Assembly: GCA_012270975.1 (NCBI GenBank)
Contig: JAAXHH010000136.1
Coordinates: 1-64,000, forward strand
Direction of reading: 5' to 3'
From: Candidatus Latescibacterota bacterium
Lineage (GTDB): Bacteria > JAAXHH01
DNA: 64,000 bases
Shown here one piece after another: positions 51,083 through 60,171 of this stretch. Under the pieces are notes generated by a model. The model saw only the letters and a program-made list of their open reading frames with translations. It ran no database searches and was not told where the DNA came from. The position numbers and the translations under genes are program-made. The number at the start of each line of letters is the position of its first letter. Positions within the stretch are counted from its first letter, which is position 1.

Positions 51083-53029
51083 CTACACCAGCACCCCCGG
51101 CATGGGCTTGAACTGGCAGGCCTCGACAAAGACCTCGAAGAAGTCGGGCGTGGTCTCAAGTTCGATGTGCTCGATGTCCTTGACCAGCGCCTCCAGCTCC
51201 GCGCGGCGCGAGCGGGACAGGAGGATCTCGCGTGCACCCTGGACGGCTGCATTACCCACCTTGACGATGCGGTCTTCGGGCACGGGGGCCAGGAACCCGA
51301 TGTCGATGGCGTTACGGACGTCCACGTAGTTGGCGAAACCGCCCGCCAGGAAAAGGCGGTCCACGTCGCCGGGCGCGACGCCGAACGTACGCAGGACGAT
51401 GTACTGCCCGCAGTAGTTGGCGGCCTTGGCCTGGGCCAGGTTGCTGGCGTCCTGGCGTGACAGGGTGATGCCGGACTCCGGCACGACAGGCACTTCGAAC
51501 TGTTTACGGTCGGCGTAGACGCCCTTGGGCGACATCATGCCGTGGCGGCGCAATTCGGCGAGGAGGTCGATCAGGCCGGAACCGCAGATGCCCTGGGCCG
51601 TGGTATCGCCGATGGTGCTCCAGGCGAACCGCCCGTCTTCCCACTTCAACGTTTCGATGGCGCCTTCGTAACCGGGCATGCCGTATTGAATGCCGCCGCC
51701 CTCGAAGGCGGGACCGGCGGGACATGAAGCCGTGATCATGCGCCCGTTGCCCGCCACGACCACTTCGGTGTTGGTGCCCACGTCCACAAGCATGGATACG
51801 CCCGGTTGCGCGGCGAGTTCGACGGTGGCCAGGTCGGCCGCCACGTCGCCGCCCACGTGGCTGGCGATGAGGGGCAGGCCGTAGACCCGGGCCTTCGGAT
51901 TGGCGCGGAGTCCGAGGCGGCGGGTGCCGATGGTGAGCGCCGTGGTCTCCCGCTCCCCCGCGAGGTATTCGTTCTCGATCAGGGACTTGTAGGGTTTCTG
52001 GCCGATGCTCTGCACGTCGAGCCGGAAGAAGAGGTCCCGCATGGTGGCGTTGCCCGCCACGACGATCTCATAGATCTCCTGCCGCGCGGTTCCCGTCCGC
52101 TCGCACCAGTCCATGATCTCGTGGTTGACGGCGTTGATGATGGCGTTCCAGAGTTCACCCTCGAACGAACCGTCGTAGGAGATCCGGTGCATCACGTCGC
52201 TGCCGCCGAATCGCTGGGGGTTCTCGAAGGAGCAGACGTGGACGCTCTTTCCGGTCTCCAGGTCCACGAAGTCCATGACCACCGTGGTCGTGCCGAGGTC
52301 GATCGCGAGCCCGTACAGGTGCCCGCGGAACTGGTCCACCTGCTCATCGTCGTAGAAAACCGCATCGCCCCTGCGGGTGACCATGGGGTCCAGCGGCGTT
52401 TCCTTTTCTTCGGTAACGGTCAGGATCTTGGGCGTACGGCGCAGGGGGGAGAAGGCGATGTCCACCTTCGGATCGATCACGCGCGCCTGGCAGGCGAGCC
52501 GGTAGTTCTCCCGCAGGAAGGACTCGGGTTTCGTCCGTGGCACGAGCCCTTCCATCCCCTCCTGTATTTCCACGATGCACTCGTGGCAGATGCCGTTGCG
52601 GAAACACGAGGTGGGCACCTGCACGGCGAGGTCGTCGGCGTAGTCGAAGATGGACTTGCCGATGACCGAGGGTTGGGTCGTCGTGCCGTCGGTCACCGAT
52701 CCGCCGGCTGGGTCTGTGGTATTTCCGGTATTCAGGTTTGGTGCATCCTGGTCGGGCCCTCCCGCTTCAGCCCGTTCGCGGGGCGCCTCATCGGTCTCCC
52801 AGGCGCTGCGGTAATCGAGCTTGTCGTCCCCGCCACACACGAGCAGGCCGCCGGCTTCACGGGGCTTGCGCTGGTTGCGGCACCCGAACCGGGCGGTGCA
52901 TTCGTCGAAGCGGTTCTTGTAGGGGCAGCGGTAGGTGGCCTGCTCGGTCGCATGGGCCATCATATCCTTGAAGATGGCCGTGATGCGGTCCAGCCGCTCC
53001 TGGTACGCCGCCTTGTCGATCTTTTTCAT
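51083..53029 (-). CDS. RACo-like corrinoid activator (2Fe-2S plus ASKHA domain)
   Basis: This 648-residue protein has an N-terminal Cys cluster (Cys35, 44, 50, 65), a plant-type [2Fe-2S] ferredoxin (Cys142, 148, 151 and 180), then a middle domain and a C-terminal ASKHA ATPase domain beginning LAIDLGTTTVVMDF near 250 and GGGFANYVD-type near 565. This order matches reductive activators of corrinoid proteins (RACo, DUF4445), which reduce inactive Co(II) to Co(I) with ATP. The first Cys set is not usual. Its partner is the corrinoid protein encoded directly upstream. Confidence 0.9.
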   Translation of the reverse strand: MKKIDKAAYQERLDRITAIFKDMMAHATEQATYRCPYKNRFDECTARFGCRNQRKPREAGGLLVCGGDDKLDYRSAWETDEAPRERAEAGGPDQDAPNLNTGNTTDPAGGSVTDGTTTQPSVIGKSIFDYADDLAVQVPTSCFRNGICHECIVEIQEGMEGLVPRTKPESFLRENYRLACQARVIDPKVDIAFSPLRRTPKILTVTEEKETPLDPMVTRRGDAVFYDDEQVDQFRGHLYGLAIDLGTTTVVMDFVDLETGKSVHVCSFENPQRFGGSDVMHRISYDGSFEGELWNAIINAVNHEIMDWCERTGTARQEIYEIVVAGNATMRDLFFRLDVQSIGQKPYKSLIENEYLAGERETTALTIGTRRLGLRANPKARVYGLPLIASHVGGDVAADLATVELAAQPGVSMLVDVGTNTEVVVAGNGRMITASCPAGPAFEGGGIQYGMPGYEGAIETLKWEDGRFAWSTIGDTTAQGICGSGLIDLLAELRRHGMMSPKGVYADRKQFEVPVVPESGITLSRQDASNLAQAKAANYCGQYIVLRTFGVAPGDVDRLFLAGGFANYVDVRNAIDIGFLAPVPEDRIVKVGNAAVQGAREILLSRSRRAELEALVKDIEHIELETTPDFFEVFVEACQFKPMPGVLV

Positions 53030-53062: not shown

Positions 53063-53827
53063 TCAGGCTTCCTGTTCCTGCTTGAGTTCTTCGAGGAGAC
53101 GCTGGGCCAGTTCCACGCATCCCACCGCGTCCTCGGCGGTGCCGTCGGCGCCCATGTCATCGGCAAACTCCTGGGTGACCGACGCGCCGCCCACCATGAT
53201 CTTGACGTCCTCCCGCATATCGTTGTCGATGAAGGCGTCGATGGTCTTGCCCATGTTGGGCATGGTCGTGGTCAGCAGCGCCGACATGCCCAGCAGGGGC
53301 GCCTCGTGTTCCTCCACCGCGTCCATGAACTCGTCCTCGGAAGTGTCCACCCCCAGGTCGTGGACCACGAACCCGGCGCCGCGCAGCATCATGATGCACA
53401 GGTTCTTGCCGATGTCGTGGAGATCGCCTTTGACCGTGCCCATGATGACGGTGCCGACGGATTCGATGCCCGAAGCGGAGAGGATGGGCTCGATGTGGGC
53501 CATCCCGGCCTTCATGGCCCGGGCGCAGGCGAGAACTTCCGGAACGAAGATGAAGTTCTCGCGAAACTTGATGCCTACGACGCTCATGCCGGCGATCAAG
53601 CCGTCGTCCATCACTTCCAGTGCTTCAGTGCCGCCGTCCAGCGCCGCCCGGGTCAGCGTGTCGACCGTCCCGTTGTCCCCATCGATGAGGGCCGCGGAAA
53701 TTTCCTGCATGGCGGGCGTCGCCCGGGCGAAAGCGTCGATGATCCGCGTCCGCTCGTTGGGCCTTTCGATGAACTCTTCTATTTCGTCCTTCAGAAAGTC
53801 ATTGGCTATATCGTTTAATTCTGCCAT
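53063..53827 (-). CDS. Corrinoid (cobalamin-binding) methyl-carrier protein
   Basis: This 254-residue protein has the helical cap (about 30-115) and Rossmann B12-binding domain of MtbC/MttC/MetH-type carriers. DLHDIG (135-140) gives the lower-axial ligand His137, and SALLTTTM (182-189) is the second dimethylbenzimidazole-tail motif. It should shuttle a methyl group between methyltransferases. It lies between a MtaA/MtbA-like gene and the RACo-like activator. Confidence 0.95.
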   Translation of the reverse strand: MAELNDIANDFLKDEIEEFIERPNERTRIIDAFARATPAMQEISAALIDGDNGTVDTLTRAALDGGTEALEVMDDGLIAGMSVVGIKFRENFIFVPEVLACARAMKAGMAHIEPILSASGIESVGTVIMGTVKGDLHDIGKNLCIMMLRGAGFVVHDLGVDTSEDEFMDAVEEHEAPLLGMSALLTTTMPNMGKTIDAFIDNDMREDVKIMVGGASVTQEFADDMGADGTAEDAVGCVELAQRLLEELKQEQEA

Positions 53828-53894: not shown

Positions 53895-54938
53895 CTATGC
53901 CGCGTGGTGGACGTGCCAGTCCTTCACCGCCTGCGGGATCGCCTTCAGGTTCTCGACGGACGCCTGCAGGGGAACGGCGCACTCCGGTCCCACCATATGA
54001 ATTCCGTGTTCCAGGTTCTGGCAGACTTCCTGCCCCACTTCTTCGGGACCACGTGCGAAAAGCGTCTCGGGATTGTTGATGTTCCCCACGAGGGAGATCT
54101 TGCCGTCGACGGCCTCCATGGACTCCTGGGGCTTGTTTTTCGAATCGAAATGAAAGGCCGCGAAGCCGGTCTCGGCGATGTAGCCCATGCGGTCCACGGT
54201 GCGCCCGCAGATGTGCATGATCAGCGGGATGGGTATCCGTTCGGCCATCTCGATGTGCAGGTCCCGCAGGAAGCGGCGGTAGTATTCGCCGCTCACCAGG
54301 TCGCCCGTGGCGTGGTCCGGCAGGGTCAGGGCGTCCGCCCCGGCCTCGATCTGTGCGATGCCGAACTCCACCGTGGCCTCCTTCATGCGGTCCAGGGCGA
54401 GATGGGTCCTGCCGGGGTCGTCGAGGGACATGAGCAGGAAGGGTTCCACGCCGAAGCAGTGGTATCCCAGGGACCAGGGGCCCATGGTCTTGCCGATGAC
54501 CGCCACTTCGTCGCCGTATTCCTTCTTGAGCTTGCTGATGGCGTCGAGGACGCACTTCGTGTCCCGGTGCGTCAGGAAATCCGAAGGTATCTTGATGTCG
54601 TCCACGTCGGTCCAGATGGGTTCCCGCATCTTGACCGTAGGCCAGTTGTCCTTCTGCTCCCACTGGATCTTGCAACCCAGCGCGGAGGACTCCTGGATGA
54701 TGGTAAAGACCGGCATGATGGTGTCGAATCCGAGTTCCGTGTAGCCCGTGGCCGCGAGACGGGCCATGAGCTCCGGGTCCCGGTTGGCGTCCGGGAAAGG
54801 CGCGTCAACGAGATCCATCAGTTCCACCGTGGCGACGGACGTCGGATTGCACACGGGCGTGCGGTCCACGGGCTCTCCCCTCAGGGCAGCCAGTACCCGG
54901 TCCCGGCCCTTCATCTGCTTGATGACGCTCGTTTCCAT
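53895..54938 (-). CDS. Uroporphyrinogen-decarboxylase-family methyltransferase (MtaA/MtbA type)
   Basis: This 347-residue TIM barrel has the zinc-thiol set of MtaA/MtbA: His242 and Cys244 in MHICG and Cys320 in GPECAVP. True HemE lacks this set, so methyl transfer from or to the corrinoid protein is indicated. The methyl acceptor or donor is unknown. I start at the ATG before ETSVIKQMKG, which has a GGAGG ribosome site; a longer frame exists. Confidence 0.92.
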   Translation of the reverse strand: METSVIKQMKGRDRVLAALRGEPVDRTPVCNPTSVATVELMDLVDAPFPDANRDPELMARLAATGYTELGFDTIMPVFTIIQESSALGCKIQWEQKDNWPTVKMREPIWTDVDDIKIPSDFLTHRDTKCVLDAISKLKKEYGDEVAVIGKTMGPWSLGYHCFGVEPFLLMSLDDPGRTHLALDRMKEATVEFGIAQIEAGADALTLPDHATGDLVSGEYYRRFLRDLHIEMAERIPIPLIMHICGRTVDRMGYIAETGFAAFHFDSKNKPQESMEAVDGKISLVGNINNPETLFARGPEEVGQEVCQNLEHGIHMVGPECAVPLQASVENLKAIPQAVKDWHVHHAA

Positions 54939-55024: not shown

Positions 55025-55699
55025 TCATCCATCCTGCTGACTGGGCGCGGCCAGGACGCCCCGGCTGGCGGCCGCCTCCTGTTCGCGCAGGACGGCCCGG
55101 ACGTTGGGCGCACGGACCAGCAATAGCCCGACTAGGGCGTCGTGAACGAATCCGCAGGGGAAAACCACTTGGTCCAGGGTGCCGCTTACCTCGTCGATCT
55201 CGGCCAGCTTCATCAGGCCACCCGCGATGAAGGATATACGGCGGTCGCGGTCCTTGCCCTCGCCGTGGGCCGTGACCCGGTAGACGCCGTCGCCCTCGCT
55301 CAGGACCTGGATCTGCAATCCGGATTTCTTGTCCAGGATCTGCAACGGCCGCGGTTCGACTGGGCCGGCCGGATCCAGTTTGCAGGCTTCGAGGAACACG
55401 CGCTTTACCGCCAGGTTGTGTTCATAGCCGCAGGGAAAACGCAGGCGGCCGGCGGTGGCCGGCTCCATGCCTCCGAGGACTTCCATGGCCTTCATCACGA
55501 AGGCGATCCGGTCCTCGACGCCTTCCCGCCGGCTGTAGGTGAATACCCGGTATACCGGTCCCGCGTCGTCCCGCTGGCGGTACAGGCCGATCGAAATGTC
55601 CCCGAAATGGGGATCCAGCGGAACCAGTTCGATGCGCCGGCCTATGTCGACCGTTTGGCCCAATAGCCTTCTCCGTTCGCGGCTGGTCCTAAACGCCAC
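55025..55699 (-). CDS. Unknown protein with two ~90-residue FPCG(Y/F)xH repeats
   Basis: This 224-residue protein fits no family I know. It is internally duplicated: YRV at 50 with FPCGYEH at 88-94, and YRV at 140 with FPCGFVH at 180-186. Each copy has a strand-helix layout ending in the Cys/His motif, so it may bind a metal or a corrinoid (inference only). There is no signal peptide. It sits between the homocysteine methyltransferase/PF13769 genes and the MtaA/MtbA-type gene, in what looks like one operon. Confidence 0.8.
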   Translation of the reverse strand: MAFRTSRERRRLLGQTVDIGRRIELVPLDPHFGDISIGLYRQRDDAGPVYRVFTYSRREGVEDRIAFVMKAMEVLGGMEPATAGRLRFPCGYEHNLAVKRVFLEACKLDPAGPVEPRPLQILDKKSGLQIQVLSEGDGVYRVTAHGEGKDRDRRISFIAGGLMKLAEIDEVSGTLDQVVFPCGFVHDALVGLLLVRAPNVRAVLREQEAAASRGVLAAPSQQDG

Positions 55700-55766
55700 C
55701 GCCGCGGCCGTCCTTTTCGCCTGATCGCTTGCCGCGGGCCCATCTCCTGACCTTTCGCGGCTGGTC

Positions 55767-56036
55767 CTATCCCTTGTCGTACTCTTCTTCCAGTAGCTTC
55801 AGAACGGCTGCCGCGACCGTTTCCGCGTCGTTTCCTTCCCCGGTCCATTCCCGTTTTTCGGACCAGTGCCACTCGTCCAGGTAGGCGTCGGTGCCGGTCA
55901 GGCCGTCCCGCATGGCCACCCGGTCGATTTCCTGCTGGAACCAGTCGGGCATCTGGCGCGACAGTGGCCGCCGGCCTCCGTAGACGCGCACCTGCGCCGG
56001 GATATCCCGCCAGTACAGTACCTGGTACACTGCCAT
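55767..56036 (-). CDS. Small PF13769-type protein ('virulence factor')
   Basis: This 89-residue protein begins MAVYQVLYWRDIPAQVRVYGG and has the WFQQEIDRVAMRDGL and LDEWHWSEKREWTGEGNDAETVAA blocks. I recognise these as the PF13769 'Virulence_fact' family. Despite the name, this family tends to occur beside C1/B12 methyl-transfer genes, as here. The start is the ATG before AVYQVLYW. Its function is not known. Confidence 0.7.
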   Translation of the reverse strand: MAVYQVLYWRDIPAQVRVYGGRRPLSRQMPDWFQQEIDRVAMRDGLTGTDAYLDEWHWSEKREWTGEGNDAETVAAAVLKLLEEEYDKG

Positions 56037-56142
56037 GCCGACCGATCCCGTGCTCAGGCGACAAGCGCTTCGCCTAAACTGCCGCAGGCTCTCCGGCCCT
56101 CCGCTGCCGCAGGCTGTCCGGCCGCACGCTACTCCCGTATGC

Positions 56143-57144
56143 TCACGCCGCCGCCCGGTCCATCGCCTCGCGGAAGGCCCGGATGTGACTGACACCCGTG
56201 CCGCAACATCCGCCGATGAAGTAGGCGCCGGCTTCCAGGAGGCCCGGCACGAAAGCGGCCATTTCCTCCGGCGTGTTCGCGTAATAGGTCCGGTGCTGCT
56301 CGTCCAGTCGGGCCTTCCCCGCGTTCGGGTAGGCCATCATGCGTTTCGGCGCATCCATTCGGGCGTCCATGGCGCGCTTCAACTGGCCGATGCCGTTGAT
56401 GGCGTAGGGCATTCCCGTATGCTCGTCGCGCCGGGATTCCGCGCCGCAGTTCAGGCCGACGATCTGCACGTGCTCGAGCAAGTCCTGCCCAGCGGCCTGC
56501 GTGCCGCCCGCGAGGATCTCCAGGAGATCCGCCGCCGAATGGCCCCAGTCCGTTTTGTAGATGACCTCGCCCGTTGTCCGGTCCTTCGTGTACTTGTACG
56601 TCTGGTTCACGGCGATGGGTATACCGAACTGTCTCAACTCGTTCACGGCCAGGGCCGCCTCGTTGGCGGAGAACATGGTCTCGACGCAGAAGAAATCCAC
56701 GCCGCCCTCCGCCAGCGCCGTGCCCACGCGCTCGTGGGCGTCCCGGGCGATGCTGTTCGCGATACCGAACTCCGTGTCGCCGCTGTCGGCCTCGATGGCG
56801 CCAGGCAGCGGACCGATGGAACCAGCGAGGTACACCTCCCTGCCGCTGCGCTCAATGGCGGCACGGGCGTGTTCCACGGATCGCCGGATCAGCCCGTCGG
56901 ATTCGGAGGCGTCCTTCCCCGCCATTTCCAGATGGGGATGCGACGCCACGAAGGTATTCGTGCCGATCGCTTCCGAACCTGCTTCAATATAGTCGAAATG
57001 AATGGCCCTGACAATGTCGGGGTGGAGCTCGTTGGCCAGCGCGCTGTTGGCCAGTTCGATGCCGCGGGCGAAGAGTTCCGTGCCGAATCCGCCGTCGTAA
57101 AGGAGGGGCCGGTCTTCGGCGATGCGTTCAAGAAAGGGTTTCAT
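56143..57144 (-). CDS. Homocysteine S-methyltransferase family protein
   Basis: This 333-residue TIM-barrel enzyme has the zinc-thiolate set: Cys233 in LNCGAE and Cys313/Cys314 in GGCCGT. The DGGFGTELFARGIE start and IGTNTFVASHP loop are typical. It makes methionine from homocysteine with a methyl donor such as S-methylmethionine, betaine or a methylated corrinoid. Its place upstream of a corrinoid protein suggests it is the final acceptor step here (inference). Confidence 0.92.
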   Translation of the reverse strand: MKPFLERIAEDRPLLYDGGFGTELFARGIELANSALANELHPDIVRAIHFDYIEAGSEAIGTNTFVASHPHLEMAGKDASESDGLIRRSVEHARAAIERSGREVYLAGSIGPLPGAIEADSGDTEFGIANSIARDAHERVGTALAEGGVDFFCVETMFSANEAALAVNELRQFGIPIAVNQTYKYTKDRTTGEVIYKTDWGHSAADLLEILAGGTQAAGQDLLEHVQIVGLNCGAESRRDEHTGMPYAINGIGQLKRAMDARMDAPKRMMAYPNAGKARLDEQHRTYYANTPEEMAAFVPGLLEAGAYFIGGCCGTGVSHIRAFREAMDRAAA

Positions 57145-58320: not shown

Positions 58321-60171
58321 TTACGGCTCGCCGCGTTCCAGGACGAAGGCTTCCATGGCGTAGTACTGGGGAAATCCCAGCTTGTCCAGGCGCCGTGCCG
58401 TGTGGGTATTGCGGTCCTGCACGCGCTCCCAGAACTCCCGGTCGTCGTACGCCCCCGGGAACATGGCGGTGTCCTTCTGGGACTCGTGTCGGAAGATGGC
58501 CTGGATCTTGCGCTGGAGGTCTTCATAGGAAAGGGGGATGAAAACGTCCGCCTCGTCCACTTCCCACTCCTGCCAGGCGCCCCGGTACAGCCATACTTCC
58601 GGGTTCGTCCCGTCGTAGACGGCGAGGGCCTGGTCGATGACTTCCTTGCACACGCGATGGGTGCCGTGGGGGTCGGACAGGTCTCCGGCGACGAAGACGA
58701 CCTCGGGGCGGATTTCATTCAGCAGGTTCAGCACGATGCCGACGTCGTCCTCGCAGACGGGGTTTTTCTTCACCTGTCCGGTTTTGTAGAAGGGCAGGTC
58801 CAGGAACCGTGTCTTCTCCGGTGGGATGTTCACCGTCGACGCCGCCGCGATGGCCTCGGACCGGCGGATGTTGGTCTTGATGACCTGTACCTCGGGGATG
58901 TCGACCTGTCCGGGTTGTTTCGCCGCGAGGAAGGACCGGACCGTGTCCACGATGCCGTCGAACCGTTCGTGCGGGCAGCCCAGGTCGCGGAAGGTCAACC
59001 CGATGAAGTCGATGAGCCGTTTCACGTCCTCGTCGAATACGGCGATGTTGCCGCTGGTCATGTAGGCGATGGTGATGTCGTTTCCGACGGCGGACAGGCG
59101 GAACAGCGTGCCGCCCATGGAGATGACATCGTCGTCCGGGTGGGGCGAAAAGCAGATGCACCGCTTGCCGGTGAACAGGTCCTGGCGCCCGTATATCTTG
59201 GCGCGGACCGCGTCGAAGGTCTTCCGGTTCAGCTCGTCGACCGACTGGACGGTGTCGACCAGGGAGTAGAGATCGTGGGCGTTGTAATCCCGCCGCTGCA
59301 GGTGCAGCACCGGCTTGTCCGTCCGCTCGCACAGCCAGAGCACGGCCCGCCGCGAAAGCTGGTCGGTCCAGTCCACCGCGTGGTTGTTCAGCCAGGGCAG
59401 CTTGACGCGGGTAAGTTCGCTCGATGCGGCCGGGTCGATGAAAACCGTGGCGTTCGGATGGTTCTGCAGGTAGCTGGCCGCGACGAGGGGACTCACCTCG
59501 CCTTCGACGGCCTCCCGGACGATGGGCGCCTTGTGCTCCCCCGTGGCCATGAGGATGATCCGCTCCGCGTCGAGGATGGTGCCGACGCCCATGGTCACGG
59601 CCTCGATGGGCACGTTCTCTTCGCCATGGAAACTGGAGGCCGCGTCCTTGCGCGTGATCTCGTCCAGCCGGATCAGGCGGGTCCGGGTATCGGGCAGCGA
59701 GCCGGGCTCGTTGAAACCGATATGCCCCGTTCGCCCGACGCCCAGAAGCTGGATGCCGATGCCGCCCACGGCACGGATGCGTTCCTCGTACCAGTCGCAG
59801 TGTTCCTCGATTTCTTCCGGTGCCAGGTCGCCCAGGGGAACGAAGATCTGGTCGTCCGGTATGTCGACGTGGTCGAAGAGGTATTCCCGCATGTACCGGT
59901 GATAGCTCTGCGCCGACTGTCTCGACATGGGGTAGTATTCGTCGAGGTTGAACGTGACGACGTTCTCGAAACTGACGCCGCCGCGATGAAACGCGATGAG
60001 TTCACCGTATACGTCGATGGGCGTGGAGCCCGTGCAGAGGCCGAGTACGGCCAACTGGCCCTGCTCGCCGCGGCCCCTGGCGTAATCGACGATTTCGCGG
60101 GCGACCGTCTTCGACAGCGTCTTGTGGTCCGGACAGACTACGATGGGGATATGTTCGGTGCTGGGATGCAA
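58321..60171 (-). CDS. nagB: Glucosamine-6-phosphate deaminase/PIG-L deacetylase fusion
   Basis: Fused protein of 616 residues. The N-terminal NagB domain (about 1-275) has Asp77 in NLDEYY, His150 and Glu155 in GRTGHIGFNEPG. The residue aligned with E. coli Asp141 is Thr148. The C-terminal LmbE/PIG-L domain (about 335-610) has the metal-binding HPDDD at 344-348 and SDPHGTH later. These enzymes deacetylate N-acetylglucosamine derivatives, so the pair may open and deacetylate amino sugars in one protein. Known from Bacteroidota-type fusions. It stands alone. Confidence 0.9.
   Translation of the reverse strand: MHPSTEHIPIVVCPDHKTLSKTVAREIVDYARGRGEQGQLAVLGLCTGSTPIDVYGELIAFHRGGVSFENVVTFNLDEYYPMSRQSAQSYHRYMREYLFDHVDIPDDQIFVPLGDLAPEEIEEHCDWYEERIRAVGGIGIQLLGVGRTGHIGFNEPGSLPDTRTRLIRLDEITRKDAASSFHGEENVPIEAVTMGVGTILDAERIILMATGEHKAPIVREAVEGEVSPLVAASYLQNHPNATVFIDPAASSELTRVKLPWLNNHAVDWTDQLSRRAVLWLCERTDKPVLHLQRRDYNAHDLYSLVDTVQSVDELNRKTFDAVRAKIYGRQDLFTGKRCICFSPHPDDDVISMGGTLFRLSAVGNDITIAYMTSGNIAVFDEDVKRLIDFIGLTFRDLGCPHERFDGIVDTVRSFLAAKQPGQVDIPEVQVIKTNIRRSEAIAAASTVNIPPEKTRFLDLPFYKTGQVKKNPVCEDDVGIVLNLLNEIRPEVVFVAGDLSDPHGTHRVCKEVIDQALAVYDGTNPEVWLYRGAWQEWEVDEADVFIPLSYEDLQRKIQAIFRHESQKDTAMFPGAYDDREFWERVQDRNTHTARRLDKLGFPQYYAMEAFVLERGEP

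Follow-up and report, generated by a model that had tools for sequence, protein, structure and literature searches.

What does a small, internally duplicated protein contribute to an operon for corrinoid-dependent methyl transfer? The question is raised by an open frame on the minus strand, at 55025-55699, of a Candidatus Latescibacterota contig (the window, that is, the whole stretch of 64,000 nucleotides analysed here). The frame is present as first described, and its product, which we call the FPCG protein, carries two FPCG motifs, each followed by a His. Translation most likely starts at TTG 55663 and not at GTG 55699, because most homologues begin at the codon corresponding to the former (M/L-G-Q-T) and because a GGAG lies 7 nt upstream of it. 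The gene and its probable start signal would thus be as follows:

55025..55663, minus strand: FPCG gene (duplicated CxxxH protein), 212 aa, with the TTG start shared by orthologues
55667..55674, minus strand: probable ribosome-binding site GGAGAAGG, read from the sequence upstream of TTG 55663

A 19-nt direct repeat (55673-55691 and 55751-55769, 18/19 identical, 78 bp apart) is found where the FPCG gene adjoins the gene for a PF13769 protein. In a Verrucomicrobia record the FPCG orthologue is broken by a frame change (L041:10001-10640).

Two related domains, each with an invariant Cys/His pair

The two halves of the protein are related to each other: blastp aligns them at E 2e-6 over 59 columns, and a comparison of their profiles at E 5.5e-11 (probability 97.1) over 60 columns. 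The first-pass annotation of this DNA had placed the copies at residues 50-110 and 140-200, in good agreement with the matched residues, about 49-105 and 138-195 in its numbering. Structure prediction, which it had proposed as a check, gave a confident AlphaFold2 model from 27 sequences (pLDDT 88.1, pTM 0.84), with a β-β-α-β-α order in each domain. The parts of the protein, in the numbering of the 212-residue product, are:

55379..55609, minus strand: domain 1, residues 19-95, β-β-α-β-α order, from the duplication and the AlphaFold2 model
55064..55333, minus strand: domain 2, residues 111-200, on the same basis
55418..55438, minus strand: motif 1, F-P-C-G-Y-E-H (C78, H82), Cys and His invariant in 58/58 orthologues and in the distant ones
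55142..55162, minus strand: motif 2, F-P-C-G-F-V-H (C170, H174), Cys and His invariant in 58/58 orthologues and in the distant ones
55034..55066, minus strand: C-terminal tail, SRGVLAAPSQQ, nearly invariant and predicted to be disordered, from conservation and model pLDDT

None of C78, H82, C94, C170 and H174 varies among 58 distinct full-length orthologues, and H19 is found in 56 of them. When both domains of eleven orthologues are aligned together, four columns are invariant, those of an Arg, a Phe, the Cys and the His; the F, P and G flanking the motif Cys vary among orthologues. Two distant orthologues, with 36% identity, retain C78, H82, C170 and H174, and have lost H19 and C94. Since the CxxxH residues are the sole ones of these to persist at that distance, it is the Cys and the His that form the core of the motif, rather than its F, P or G; moreover, with H19 and C94 lost, each domain is left with a single CxxxH, as would suit a C2H2 site shared by the two. 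Metal binding by the FPCG protein is plausible. The conservation of Cys and His, and the occurrence of homologues in related contexts, were the two points on which the first-pass annotation had staked its reading, and both hold: the pairs are kept throughout, and all homologues are found in the same context, the distant orthologues in the same operon and with both CxxxH.

The C-terminal tail (SRGVLAAPSxQ) is nearly invariant in orthologues, and pLDDT falls below 50 at residues 203-212 of the model. A segment that is conserved yet disordered is often a binding segment. In the distant orthologues the tail is largely replaced and RG alone survives, so that the tail is not essential in all members of the family.

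The first-pass annotation knew of no described family with such a form, and nothing in our searches contradicts this. It matches no profile in Pfam, NCBIfam or PADLOC, DUF1852 included in the Pfam scans, and the DUF1638 profile (PF07796) gives no match to it at E values up to 1. Members of the alignment, scanned one by one against Pfam and PHROGs, gave isolated weak hits only, and a sequence search of the PDB returned nothing at E <0.1. Nor does the model resemble a known fold significantly, either in the PDB (Foldseek, best E 0.14, TM 0.17) or among viral models (best E 0.014, TM 0.20). Of the single- and double-domain relatives that the first-pass annotation had suggested looking for, only the latter were found when a joint profile of both domains was run against 288 genomes. 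In everything searched, the literature being covered as its open-access subset, both the family and its predicted fold appear to be undescribed.

A corrinoid operon with an MtaA/CmuA-type methyltransferase

Profile annotation of the neighbouring genes agrees with the corrinoid operon that had been recognized from the letters alone. In the window, the order is homocysteine methyltransferase, PF13769 protein, FPCG protein, methyltransferase, corrinoid protein and activase, and the genes around the FPCG gene are:

56143..57144, minus strand: homocysteine S-methyltransferase family protein (PF02574), from profiles and recurrence across loci
55767..56195, minus strand: PF13769 ("Virulence_fact") protein, a regular operon member, its real start probably nearer 56036
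53895..54938, minus strand: MtaA/CmuA-family (UroD-fold) methyltransferase, the obligate partner, with zinc motifs HxC and GPEC, from profiles, adjacency and co-occurrence
53063..53827, minus strand: corrinoid protein with a DLHDIG (DxHxxG) motif, from profiles and motif
51083..53029, minus strand: corrinoid reductive activase of the RACo/RamA type with a 2Fe-2S domain, from profile matches

The methyltransferase belongs to the MtaA/CmuA family, scoring 244.2 bits against TIGR01463 (cut-off 235.4), and alignment with MtaA from Methanosarcina (4ay7) brings its HICG and GPEC motifs onto their counterparts there, so that the HxC...C zinc ligands are in place. Against the MtaA equivalog NF040654 (methylcobamide:CoM methyltransferase) it reaches 237 bits, below the 400 required. 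Enzymes of the MttB family (PF06253) were sought in 12 genomes and found in none, which makes the UroD-type enzyme the likely substrate methyltransferase. The corrinoid protein stays under the cut-offs of the NCBIfam MtgC profiles (189.8 of 370 and 174.1 of 310 bits). In other phyla the operon gains MetF with DUF5981 and a pterin-binding methyltransferase, MeTr. A MetH-like long frame of 1245 aa is present elsewhere in the genome of the window, and the operon is thus probably not the only methionine synthase of the organism. Neither a riboswitch nor another RNA element was found near the operon of the window or at seven other loci.

Some further features of the region were recorded. The PF13769 protein adjoins MeTr and MetF in other phyla, and the name "Virulence_fact" looks misleading for a member of a corrinoid/C1 operon. 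In the N-terminal part of the activase is a three-Cys motif, CPYKNx4CTAxFGCxxQ (52871-52927, minus strand), which recurs in about 50 loci, lies outside the Pfam domains and is possibly another metal or Fe-S site. At 58321-60171 on the minus strand, a glucosamine-6-phosphate isomerase-like domain is fused to a PIG-L de-N-acetylase domain.

The FPCG gene travels with one methyltransferase clade

Each of the 49 loci, which come from several phyla, has the FPCG gene followed downstream, in the same orientation, by a UroD-fold methyltransferase gene of a single clade, whose products are 68-95% identical to that of the window; one more locus, from the search of the Lentisphaeria phylum, has the same arrangement. 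At many loci the methyltransferase start follows the FPCG stop by about 15 nt or less, often with a ribosome-binding site that overlaps the stop. Conversely, 15 of 18 genomes lacking the FPCG gene gave no match to the methyltransferase and two have homologues at only 48-50% identity, with no corrinoid genes alongside; the last (G517) has an 81% identical enzyme, the gene for which begins at the end of a contig, so that any gene upstream of it would fall off the contig. The pairing is obligate. In one Poribacteria lineage (L037, L169, L170, L176-L178) a ruvC-like gene, recognized by eye, sits between the two genes, which are still neighbours.

The bond with the other members of the operon is looser. 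In many Poribacteria the operon is divided, with the genes for the corrinoid protein, the activase and the homocysteine methyltransferase at a distance from the FPCG-methyltransferase pair. The corrinoid protein and the activase are absent from the examined stretch at 22 of the 49 loci; in three Poribacteria genomes among these, the corrinoid protein is encoded elsewhere, in a separate CORR-RACo-BHMT cluster. The FPCG gene thus stays with the methyltransferase and apart from the corrinoid protein and RACo where the operon is split, which is the principal argument for a function in methyl transfer rather than in corrinoid activation or cobalamin binding. Of the two roles offered by the first-pass annotation, methyl transfer or activation, it is the former that is supported. 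Its suggestion that the FPCG protein could hold the cobalamin was dropped as the leading idea: the corrinoid protein has a DxHxxG motif of its own and is separable from the FPCG protein. A linked prediction of the FPCG protein and the methyltransferase, read through the stop codon, gave pTM 0.48 and pLDDT 65, the methyltransferase part itself being poorly folded, and was set aside as of too low a quality to bear on docking.

Among the 16 genomes of the phylum to which the window belongs, 14 have the FPCG gene, as have 69 of 85 from the phylum of a Poribacteria MAG and two of five from a further small phylum; the gene is found in 1/392 and 2/388 genomes from the phyla of a Planctomycetaceae and a Lentisphaeria MAG, respectively. 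Public records with relatives are labelled as Latescibacterota, Poribacteria, Gemmatimonadetes, Planctomycetaceae, Actinomycetes, Verrucomicrobia and Lentisphaeria MAGs, some of which names may be misassigned. The protein is mainly one of little-known marine and sponge-associated bacteria, and no relatives were found on the plasmids and viral contigs searched.

A dedicated subunit, or another kind of helper?

We propose, with the chances about evenly divided for and against, that the FPCG protein serves as an accessory subunit dedicated to the downstream MtaA/CmuA-type methyltransferase, and that it would act in methyl transfer through a shared C2H2 metal site and a docking tail. The two duplicated domains would pair about a pseudo-twofold axis, such that the two CxxxH half-sites jointly hold one metal ion, probably zinc, and the flexible, conserved C-terminal tail would dock on a partner protein, in all likelihood the methyltransferase. 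A methyl group may then be moved by the complex from a methylated donor to Co(I) of the corrinoid protein. Its next acceptor would be homocysteine or, in those other phyla whose operon encodes MeTr and MetF, tetrahydrofolate by way of these two; RACo would return the oxidized cofactor to Co(I).

Obligate pairing also fits a maturation factor, which would deliver or insert zinc into one methyltransferase clade, or fold it, and take no part in the working enzyme. That the pairing is with this clade only, and that the Cys/His pairs could carry zinc, are in line with such a role. Adjacency with short spacing, seen at many loci, is however more typical of stoichiometric partners, and homologous enzymes of the MtaA family occur without an FPCG protein; we regard a maturation factor as unlikely.

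MtaA-type enzymes move methyl groups to or from zinc-activated thiols. Given this chemistry, a conserved, metal-bound Cys of the FPCG protein could replace coenzyme M or another thiol, as a protein-borne stand-in in bacteria that is methylated or demethylated by the methyltransferase. The invariance of the Cys residues agrees with such a thiol source or acceptor, and there is a precedent in MesX, which, it has been suggested, might carry methyl groups covalently for MesD (PMC7857596). The His paired with each motif Cys is, however, better suited to a metal ligand, and a protein thiol carrier seems to us quite improbable. Equally poor are the prospects of a helper of corrinoid activation, in which the FPCG protein, like DUF1638, would aid RACo in the reduction of Co(II). 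The two share an operon in many genomes, and other RamA-dependent systems use DUF1638 as an extra protein (PMC5764234), but split operons keep the FPCG gene with the methyltransferase and not with the corrinoid protein or RACo, and genomes without the FPCG gene are, with the qualifications given above for three of the 18, without that methyltransferase clade. Finally, a regulator or sensor of the operon with a zinc-finger-like site, for which the Cys/His motifs and the position of the FPCG gene as the first of the pair might speak, is most improbable, as the profile scans gave no match of the FPCG protein to a DNA-binding family, a GntR/FCD regulator is already encoded upstream at one locus or more, and the tracking of one enzyme clade would be left unexplained.

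Relation to known methyl transfer systems

The machinery around the FPCG protein is otherwise familiar. The MtaA, MtbA and CmuA systems likewise combine a UroD-fold methyltransferase carrying the HxC...C zinc motif, a DxHxxG corrinoid protein and an activase of the RamA/RACo type, whereas the organisms, the donor and the acceptor differ or are not established for the FPCG system. We know of no described system of the MtaA/MtbA/CmuA type with an FPCG-like accessory protein. Type 1 mlp clusters, as portrayed in the relevant parts of PMC10418091, also group MtaA-like proteins with a corrinoid protein and an activase, and methyl-sulfur or methyl-selenium chemistry is proposed for them there; by analogy, methyl-sulfur or methyl-selenium compounds may be candidate donors for the FPCG system. 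Those clusters have at least Mlp2 and Mlp3, and the same parts of that account mention no FPCG-like partner, whereas the operon described here lacks the Mlp2 and Mlp3 pair and has one UroD-type methyltransferase gene, tied to that of an obligate, internally duplicated partner.

The MtgBCDE glycine betaine demethylase/split methionine synthase (PMC12478193) shares with the FPCG system a corrinoid protein, an MtgD-like MeTr, MetF, an MtgE-like homocysteine methyltransferase and a RamA activase. In place of MtgB, of the MttB family and encoded in 0/12 genomes tested, there is the UroD-type enzyme with its partner. The nearest conceptual precedent is MesD/MesX (DUF1852), in which a zinc methyltransferase needs a co-occurring partner of an uncharacterized family; unlike the enzyme of the FPCG system, MesD is MetE-like, cobalamin-independent and aerobic (PMC7857596). 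The FPCG family appears to be undescribed, and the machinery that surrounds it varies on corrinoid methyltransferase systems already known.

UroD-fold corrinoid methyltransferases are widespread in bacteria, with unknown substrates. As the obligate partner of one clade of these enzymes, which abounds in Poribacteria and lineages related to them, the FPCG protein is a genomic marker for that clade and offers direct biochemical access to its function. If it is a true subunit, the FPCG protein would be a new type of component in cobalamin-dependent methyl transfer, one with no recognizable relative of known fold.
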